A stretch of 29,346 nucleotides of DNA, taken from positions 1 to 29,346 of IMG/VR virus record IMGVR_UViG_3300045135_003618. One strand, 5' to 3'. This DNA comes from a virus. Position 1 is the stretch's first letter. Each line of letters starts with the position of its first letter. Of this stretch, positions 26,742 through 29,346 are shown piece after piece. Position numbers and translations under genes: made by a program. The notes beneath the pieces are model-generated. The model saw nothing but the letters and a program-made list of their open reading frames with translations. It was not told the DNA's origin and made no database searches.

Positions 26742-27680
26742 ATGGCACGAGCCCAAGGGGCGCGGGCGCAGATGGCGCTGGCGTTCGAGACGACCTATGG
26801 CACGCCTCCGGTGAGCGGCTTCACCAAGATGCCCTTTGCCAGCACGACGCTGGGGGCAGAGCAACCGCTGCAGACATCGGAACTGCTGGGCTACGGCCGC
26901 GATCCGCAGGCCCCGATCAAGGATGCGGTAACAGCGGACGGTGATGTGGTCGTGCCACTGGATGCGGAGGCCTTCGGCTTCTGGCTGAAGGCAGCTTTTG
27001 GCACCCCGACGACCACTGGCGCCGGGCCCTACACCCACGAGTTCCGCTCCGGAAATTGGGCCCTACCGTCCTTCTCGGTGGAAACCGGCATGCCTGAGGT
27101 GCCGCGTTTTGCGATGTATTCTGGCTGCATGGTGGACAGTCTCAACTGGCAGATGGCCCGGTCCGGGTTGCTGACCGCGACGGCCAGTATCGTGGCCCAG
27201 GGCGAGGCCATCGCCACAAGCACCGCGGCCGGGACATCCGCCAATATCGCGCTGAAACGTTTCGGACATTTCAACGGTGCGATCACGCGCAATGGCGTCA
27301 ACATCGGTAACGTTGTCTCTGCCGACCTTACCTATGCCAATAATCTCGACCGGATTGAAACGATCCGCGCGGATGGCAAGATCGACGGTGCGGACCCTTC
27401 TATCGCAGCGCTGACCGGTAATGTCGTCGTGCGCTTCGCCGATCAGACGCTGGTGACGCAAGCGATCAATGGTGAGGCCTGTGAGTTGGAGTTTTCCTAC
27501 ACGCTGCCGACGGGTGAGACTCTGACGCTGACAGCCCATGCCGTCTACCTGCCACGCCCCCGGATCGAAATCTCGGGCCCGCAAGGCGTGCAGGCAACCT
27601 TTGACTGGCAGGCAGCCAGCGATCCCGTGGCAGGCCGGATGTGCACCGTCACCCTGACCAACGACCGCGAGGCTTACTGA
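26742..27680 (+). CDS. Major tail tube protein
   Basis: A 312-residue tail tube protein: GARAQMALAFETTYGTPPVS, then TTLGAEQPLQTSELLGYGRD, VVPLDAEAFGFWLKAAFG, then SFSVETGMPEVPRFAMYSGC and ARSGLLTATASIVAQGE. The second half repeats a tube-like beta arrangement (FNGAITRNGVNIGNVVSADL, then ADQTLVTQAINGEACELEFS). The pattern is that of the phage_tube_2 group. AACAGGAG precedes the ATG. It touches the chaperone gene by TGATG at 27680. Confidence 0.92.
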   Translation: MARAQGARAQMALAFETTYGTPPVSGFTKMPFASTTLGAEQPLQTSELLGYGRDPQAPIKDAVTADGDVVVPLDAEAFGFWLKAAFGTPTTTGAGPYTHEFRSGNWALPSFSVETGMPEVPRFAMYSGCMVDSLNWQMARSGLLTATASIVAQGEAIATSTAAGTSANIALKRFGHFNGAITRNGVNIGNVVSADLTYANNLDRIETIRADGKIDGADPSIAALTGNVVVRFADQTLVTQAINGEACELEFSYTLPTGETLTLTAHAVYLPRPRIEISGPQGVQATFDWQAASDPVAGRMCTVTLTNDREAY

Positions 27681-28042
27681 TGCTCCGCCTGAACCTGTCG
27701 AATGAACCCAGGTGGCTCGACCTCGGCCATGGTGTGCGGTTGCTGGTGGAGCCGCTGACCACCGCCATTATGCTGGCCGCGCGTAGCGATCCGGCGATTG
27801 TCGCCGCGGCGGCAGAGGCGGACAGCACTGACTCCAACGACGATCTCGCGCGCATCGTGGCCAAGGCCGTTGCCCGCATCGTCGTGAAGGATTGGGAAGG
27901 CTTGGGCGATGAAGACGGCAAGCCACTGCCTCTCACGCCCGAGGGCATCGACGCGCTGCTGGAACTCTGGCCGATCTTCGAGGCGTTTCAAACGAAATAC
28001 ATCGCGGGCGCGCTCATCTTGGACGCGGAAAAAAACGCCTGA
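27680..28042 (+). CDS. Tail assembly chaperone, short form (lambda gpG-like)
   Basis: A 120-residue protein: LRLNLSNEPRWLDLGHGVRL, LVEPLTTAIMLAARSDP, then DLARIVAKAVARIVVKDWEG and LLELWPIFEAFQTKYIAGAL, ILDAEKNA. It lies between tail tube and tape measure, where lambda has G and GT. The ATG at 27680 is set by TGATG overlap with the tube gene. Near the stop the sequence reads GAA AAA AAC GCC TGA, containing the slippery heptamer A-AAA-AAC (28030-28036), which would send part of the ribosomes into the -1 frame and make the longer form ending at 28374. Both forms would bind the tape measure to guide tail assembly. Confidence 0.86.
   Translation: MLRLNLSNEPRWLDLGHGVRLLVEPLTTAIMLAARSDPAIVAAAAEADSTDSNDDLARIVAKAVARIVVKDWEGLGDEDGKPLPLTPEGIDALLELWPIFEAFQTKYIAGALILDAEKNA
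28030..28036 (+). promoter_or_regulatory. Programmed -1 frameshift site A-AAA-AAC
   Basis: Canonical X-XXY-YYZ heptamer in the zero frame of the chaperone, two codons before its stop. After slipping, reading goes AAA AAA CGC CTG ACC, entering the open frame that ends at 28374. Some phages use this A-AAA-AAC type of site for G/GT. Confidence 0.82.
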
Positions 28043-28374
28043 CCGCTCTCGCCGACTGGGAATTCGGCGGGGGCGGTGAGTATTGCGCGGCGTGCCCCTC
28101 TATGTGCGCGGAATGCCCCAGAGCCCTGCACGCTCCACGCAGCCTTGAGGGCTGGCAGGTCTGGGATCTGGTTCAGCGCCTTGGCGGACAAGTGCGCGTT
28201 GCCGGCGGCATGAGCGGCGGCGCTGTCCTCGGCTGGGACATGGGCGCGGCGCTGCAACTCGGGGCGGCCCTCGGGCTCTCGCCCTTCATCCTCGCGGAAC
28301 TGCTGCCGCCGATTGAGGCGGTGATGGTGCGCAAGATCAGTGAAACCCTGCAGGCCGGATCAGGCCTGACCTGA
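28036..28374 (+). CDS. Tail assembly chaperone extension (GT-like), reached by -1 frameshift
   Basis: The -1 frame continues from 28036 as RLTALADWEFGGGGEYCAAC, then PSMCAECPRALHAPRSLEGW, QVWDLVQRLGGQVRVAGGMS, and ends with FILAELLPPIEAVMVRKISE. Fused to the first 119 residues it would give about 231 residues. The extension has a Cys cluster (C-x2-C-x3-C-x2-C) that could bind zinc. The only in-frame start, ATG at 28102, would cut through this cluster, which supports production by frameshift rather than separate initiation. It is analogous to the T domain of lambda gpGT, which contacts the tail tube. The start given is where the shifted frame begins, not an initiation codon. Confidence 0.8.
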   Translation, partial: RLTALADWEFGGGGEYCAACPSMCAECPRALHAPRSLEGWQVWDLVQRLGGQVRVAGGMSGGAVLGWDMGAALQLGAALGLSPFILAELLPPIEAVMVRKISETLQAGSGLT

Positions 28375-28422: not shown

Positions 28423-29346
28423 ATGGCAGAGAAACGTGTCAGCGTCCGGCTTTCCGCGACCGGTGGGCGCCAGGTGCGTGCCGAACTCGAGGGTGTCGGA
28501 GAGGCTGGTGCGCGCGGCTTGGGGCGTCTCTCGCGCGAGATGGAACAAGCCAATGCCCGTATGGCGGCCTTTGCGCGCCGGGCCCGGATCGCAGCGACCG
28601 CTGCTGCCACGGCGCTCGCTGCCGCCGTCGTGTCGATGACGCGCTCGACCGTCGCGGCCGCCAACGAGATCAGCCAACTCTCCCAAGTGGCCAATGCCGC
28701 TCCGGAGGTGTTCCAGCGCTGGTCCGCGGCCTCCGCCACCGTCGGCATCGAACAAGAAAAGCTCGCCGACATCCTGAAGGACGTGAACGACCGCGTAGGT
28801 GATTTCCTGCAAACGGGCAGCGGTCCTATGGCGGATTTCTTCGAGAACATTGCGCCAAGGGTGGGCGTGACGGCGGATCAGTTCACCCGGCTTTCGGGGC
28901 CGGAAGCCCTGCAACTATACGTCGACAGCCTCGAGCGCGCAGGCGTCAGCCAGCAGGAGATGACCTTCTATCTCGAGGCCATGGCCTCGGATACGACGCG
29001 GCTGATCCCTCTGCTGCAAAACGGCGGTGCAGAGATGACCCGGCTCGGGGCACAGGCACAGGCGCTTGGCGCAGTGCTCGACGCAGATGCCATCGCCGCC
29101 ATGCGCCGGTCGGAACTCGCGCTGGTCAGCATTGGGCAGGTCTTCACCGGCGTGCGCAACCGTATCGCAGTGGCGCTCGCCCCCTCGCTGGAGGCAGTGG
29201 CCAATGCGTTTGTCGCCCTTGCGTCCAGCACCAGCCGCGCGCCAGAGGCCCCCAGCGGGTGGCCGACCGCAATTGCGCCGCCACCCGGGTTCACATGGTC
29301 CGCATCATCAGCAAGGCCCAGCCCGCGCAGCACGGCAAGGGATTGC
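28423..29346 (+). CDS. Phage tape measure protein, partial and disrupted at the 3' end
   Basis: The N-terminal about 268 residues look like a tape measure protein: [20 protein letters not shown], the helical [19 protein letters not shown], a hydrophobic segment ([20 protein letters not shown]), then [19 protein letters not shown] and [15 protein letters not shown]-like text. AAGGAAATG precedes the ATG at 28423 (a GTG stands just before it). From about 29220-29240 the plus-strand reading turns to Pro/Ser-rich nonsense ([20 protein letters not shown]), because the DNA there is an antisense thiolase fragment. The gene therefore breaks off where a normal tape measure would go on for many hundred residues; the frame itself stays open to the end of the window. 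Confidence 0.85.
29220..29346 (-). pseudogene. Fragment of a thiolase (acetyl-CoA acetyltransferase family), antisense to tape measure
   Basis: Minus-strand reading from the window edge gives [20 protein letters not shown], then [20 protein letters not shown]. [19 protein letters not shown] is the signature of the C-terminal part of thiolases (PcaF/PaaJ/AtoB type), with the catalytic His in GHPLG. The usual end of the protein, with the CxG cysteine motif some 30 residues later, is missing: after RLVLDA the reading becomes the reverse of the tape measure gene. The fragment is about 42 residues and continues past the window edge towards its own start. It is host metabolic DNA, not phage. It arises from a deletion or recombination at the prophage end or from a chimeric assembly. 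Confidence 0.85.

Follow-up and report, generated by a model that had tools for sequence, protein, structure and literature searches.

The tail assembly chaperone gene of this prophage most probably undergoes programmed -1 ribosomal frameshifting in the manner of lambda G/GT. The DNA analysed (the window) is the whole 29,346-nucleotide stretch of IMG/VR record IMGVR_UViG_3300045135_003618, and on the evidence of its sequence and that of its relatives we put the probability of this reading at about 0.94. A conserved slippery heptamer, an open -1 frame, a switch in codon bias and a downstream hairpin all support the frameshift that a preliminary description of the window had proposed. The G/GT mechanism is already known, as is the frameshift product of this particular family, which is annotated in phages RcKemmy and RcKai. 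What is new is that the Pfam family DUF7697 is consistently the frameshift extension, that a hairpin is conserved behind the slippery site, and that the extension carries a four-cysteine element.

Gene context

The genes of the 29.3-kb virus record run in the order terminase, portal, protease, capsid, head-tail attachment, tail tube, chaperone and tape measure. The short, G-like chaperone product (27680..28042, + strand; 120 aa) matches phrog_313 (E 5.8e-18). Its placement between tail tube and tape measure, as the preliminary description had it, is borne out by profile matches on both sides: the tail tube protein upstream (26742..27680, + strand; PF18906 Phage_tube_2, E 1.6e-59) and the N-terminal part of the tape measure protein downstream (28423..29236, + strand; phrog_2854, E 5.9e-80). 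Tape measure homology ends at 29236, and in the last 110 bases (29237-29346) the minus strand codes for the C-terminal domain of a thiolase (PF02803, E 1e-10); the contig end is therefore either chimeric or a recombination junction.

A conserved slippery heptamer before the chaperone stop

The heptamer A_AAA_AAC lies at 28030..28036 (+ strand), most of it within a run of seven As (28029-28035). The zero-frame codons around it read GAA AAA AAC GCC TGA, which places it, as first described, in the right phase (X_XXY_YYZ), with one sense codon before the chaperone stop (28040-28042). The + strand of the 29-kb window contains just two copies of AAAAAAC. In the -1 frame the nearest upstream stop is at 27910-27912 and the closing stop at 28372-28374, giving an extension of 112 codons plus stop after the heptamer (28036..28374, + strand); the open reading frame coordinates reproduce the expected length of 231 aa for a fusion across the heptamer. 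Between the stop at 27910-27912 and an ATG at 28102 the extension frame of the window has no ATG, GTG or TTG, and that first ATG falls inside a cysteine cluster (28084-28116), again in agreement with the earlier claim.

The heptamer is conserved in relatives, where it occupies the same position. The extension protein (not the heptamer) was used to fetch 160 loci from viral and genome contigs; with phage records added, 165 sequences including the window were compared. Of these, 163 have a heptamer of the form X_XXY_YYZ at the homologous position (158 AAAAAAC, 3 GGGAAAC and 2 AAAAAAA), a placement that, to judge from these sequences, is far beyond chance. Of the two without it, L091 is a contig whose sequence starts within the extension, and L129 has N bases at the site. 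The AAAAAAA pair consists of a Nostoc phage and L140, the latter a misframed match whose DNA also has an A7 run and AAAAAAC. An independent survey used the Pfam DUF7697 model alone on 783 genomes (385 from the class, 398 from the phylum), as well as on the three genomes searched initially. It returned 46 loci, 41 of them with the layout chaperone, heptamer, extension; the remaining five are broken copies (L179, L190, L210) and sub-threshold, false matches (L182, L197). A second scan of viral sequences, overlapping to a large extent with the first, found A_AAA_AAC in 80 of 80 loci. Among the 165 sequences compared, a slippery heptamer is present wherever the stretch is readable, and among intact loci we found no relative that combines its own extension start and ribosome site with the lack of a slippery site. 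In RcKai, RcKemmy, L159, L181, L183 and L193, A_AAA_AAC is replaced by G_GGA_AAC.

Several relatives depart from the common arrangement in other ways. At the slip site L147 (around 2492) has eight As, with the chaperone joined in frame to the extension, and L113 (around 2413) has nine, with an altered frame relation; these runs could reflect natural length variation, decay or sequencing error. In L190 (1291-1668) a tail tube fragment is joined to DUF7697 in a prophage remnant, apparently via a deletion. The position of the zero-frame stop after the heptamer is bimodal: in the clade of the window the short product ends one codon past the heptamer, and in other relatives it continues for about 22-42 codons as an Ala/Pro/Ser-rich tail. 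This tail overlaps the cysteine cluster in the other frame, forming a dual-coding stretch.

A predicted RNA hairpin downstream of the heptamer

The preliminary description had suggested folding the bases after 28036, and such a prediction yields a hairpin that it had overlooked. After a 5-nt spacer (28037..28041, + strand), a putative stimulatory RNA hairpin (28042..28077, + strand) has an uninterrupted 14-bp stem, 28042-28055 pairing with 28064-28077, and an 8-nt loop (28056-28063); the 84 nt after the heptamer fold at -43.2 kcal/mol (z -2.56). Across 92 distinct sequences, standard pairs fill 92.6% of pair cells, as against 42-59% for slid controls, and 16 pair cells have changed on both sides in a compensatory way, a count reached by 2 of 500 shuffles. 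When synonymous codons were sampled with the amino acids fixed, p was 0.001 both for 14 of 14 pairs and for the observed energy, and the same recoding test gave energy p-values of 0.03 or below in 12 further loci. The distant relative L165 has no hairpin, and its recoding test was also not significant. Synonymous conservation peaks at GAA AAA AAC and the stem and drops after codon 16; third positions change at a rate of 0.137 per site in the hairpin versus 0.355 downstream. The two pairs at the outer end of the stem are disrupted in 39 and 29 of the 92 sequences and are lost in the more distant group, the RNAalifold covariation term is small (-0.46), and Rfam gave no match. As judged by these predictions, the hairpin exceeds in strength what synonymous recoding would produce and is largely kept in relatives.

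The hairpin and the heptamer variants also bear on a different way of joining the frames: transcriptional slippage on the A run could add an A to the mRNA with no slippage by the ribosome. The A7 of the window is consistent with this, as are the A8 run of the Nostoc phage and the in-frame fusion at the A8 of L147. However, relatives that use G_GGA_AAC keep both the heptamer and the frame relation although their A run is just three long, so that the substitution, found in several lineages, favours ribosomal over transcriptional slippage. A hairpin downstream at typical spacing likewise points to the ribosome, and we consider transcriptional slippage very unlikely.

Evidence for translation of the extension

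Differences at first, second and third codon positions were counted in 84 close relatives: upstream of the heptamer, in the chaperone frame, they number 228/62/1084, and downstream of it, in the extension frame, 971/672/2383. The codon-position bias switches to the extension frame past the heptamer, which is evidence, drawn from sequence change, that the -1 frame is translated.

The extension might instead be a separate gene, coupled to the chaperone stop and started at 28102, 28210 or 28240. At the Met codons 28210 and 28240 a start codon is kept in 89-95% of the close group, and the Nostoc phage record gives the second part as its own CDS. Against this, 28102 is not conserved as a start, and the codons before 28210, invariant cysteines included, are under protein-level constraint in the extension frame although an internal start would leave them untranslated. 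Further upstream, 100 of 135 distinct loci have no ATG, GTG or TTG in the extension frame ahead of the first cysteine, and the remaining loci share no conserved start upstream of the cysteines; we therefore rejected an own start for the extension, there being no conserved candidate before the cysteines. A separate gene would also leave the invariant heptamer without explanation, and it seems even less probable than transcriptional slippage. The idea of a degraded or mis-sequenced single gene can draw on the foreign sequence at the contig end of the window, by which the record is not flawless, and on indels near the site in a few relatives, but it is the least credible of all and already refuted by the recurrence of the frame break across independent assemblies, in well over a hundred distinct sequences.

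The four-cysteine element

The extension opens with a cluster of the form YC-x2-C-x3-C-x2-C (28084..28116, + strand), and all four cysteines, arranged in two pairs, are invariant in the 87 aligned relatives. Distant relatives keep the four cysteines at altered spacing (for example, YCQGCQDEYAACSTRKLNPGDRPCPY), and in L022 and L030 the two pairs are separated by insertions. The pattern is typical of a metal site, and the cysteines probably form a small, zinc-knuckle-like metal-binding element. The four-cysteine cluster is a family-specific feature. The preliminary description had called such a cluster unusual for a GT-like protein. No CxxC pair is present in the extensions of lambda, D3 and Loki or in T5 ORF T5.142, which follows the short chaperone ORF, so the remark is fair within the few proteins compared, and we found no literature on zinc or cysteines in a GT-like extension. 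A more tentative idea, to which we give somewhat less than an even chance, is that the element could be an obligatory metal site (Zn or Fe-S) in the frameshift-only part, hence present only in the rare long product, and that tail initiation would require the T-like domain to be loaded with metal.

Proposed mechanism and comparison with known systems

Under programmed frameshifting, most ribosomes would terminate at 28042 and produce the 120-aa chaperone. A minority would stall at the hairpin (28042-28077) while AAA occupies the P site and AAC the A site; these ribosomes would slip to AAA AAA and read 112 more codons, giving the rarer 231-aa fusion. By analogy with lambda, the N-terminal part shared by both products may coat the tape measure protein, and the extension may recruit tail tube protein and so start tube polymerisation. 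The cysteine element would probably order the junction at which the chaperone part meets the helical domain DUF7697. In systems of the G/GT type the GT:G ratio is low, and both proteins are absent from the virion and bind the tape measure and tail tube proteins. The G/GT frameshift mechanism is well established in phages, and in E. coli A_AAA_AAC is reported to be much less shift-prone than A_AAA_AAG (PMC5009743).

Lambda gpG/gpGT resembles the present system in having a -1 frameshift where the first ORF is about to end, a position between tail tube and tape measure, and a long extension (PMC5009743; lambda record L215). It differs in its heptamer (G_GGA_AAG versus A_AAA_AAC here) and in the extension, which is unrelated by sequence and, in lambda T, has no CxxC cluster. 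True homologues are found in the RcC-cluster phages of Rhodobacter capsulatus (RcKemmy gp15/gp16 and RcKai): their extensions are about 52% identical, they have the same four-cysteine cluster, and their joined second product is already annotated as "tail assembly chaperone". Their heptamer is G_GGA_AAC, and their short product is about 30 codons longer in the zero frame. According to the R. capsulatus phage paper, frameshift signals are usual in tail assembly chaperone genes, and RcZahn was reported without one (PMC8601537). In Acinetobacter phage Loki (gp12/gp13), AAAAAAC adjoins the stop codon and there is a joined product (PMC5313236); its extension is without the cysteine cluster, and an extra gene stands ahead of the tape measure. 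HK97 gp14 is likewise annotated as a -1 frameshift product, with no sequence match detectable between HK97 gp13/gp14 and the proteins studied here.

Structure comparison gave weak matches. AlphaFold2 models were confident for both parts (pLDDT 84.6 for the short product, 83.2 for the extension). For the short product, the top VIA-align match was the structure of the HK97 chaperone gp13 (2OB9), a weak one (Z 4.3, the next being 2.1; rmsd 6.2 over 93 residues). For the extension, the best viral structural matches in Foldseek were T5-like "tape measure chaperones" (Shivani, Scapp) at E values of only 0.19-0.28, the best with probability 0.95, TM 0.60 and a weak E of 0.19; the Shivani protein is annotated as a joined product, and the match does not give which region of it is aligned. 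VIA-align matches of the extension to AhpD (Z 4.3) and to lambda Q (Z 4.0), a zinc-binding protein, were weak and within background, and were set aside. Foldseek against the PDB returned nothing under E 0.8 for either model, and searching the sequences of solved structures with the two profiles gave chance-level matches only.

A likely identity for DUF7697

The C-terminal half of the extension, its last 50 residues, is covered by DUF7697 (PF24752) and phrog_11212 (28216..28362, + strand; E 5.5e-23 and 4e-19), the Pfam match scoring 81 bits against a cut-off of 27. The cysteine-rich half lies outside both profiles here and is covered by phrog_23549 in one distant relative. DUF7697 carries the database label of unknown function, and no mention of it was found in the literature. 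Since it makes up the C-terminal half of the extension, it is best interpreted as the "T" component in a G/GT pair, so that a Pfam family of unknown function gains a likely identity as the C-terminal part of a chaperone frameshift product. The internal start annotated for DUF7697 proteins omits the cysteine-rich half, and gene callers without a frameshift model will mis-annotate the gene in many alphaproteobacterial prophages. The site, the hairpin and the natural heptamer variants offer a ready set for comparing slippage on A_AAA_AAC and G_GGA_AAC in alphaproteobacteria. DUF7697 also scored above the cut-off in the control genome of Caulobacter vibrioides, a well-studied and convenient organism for testing.
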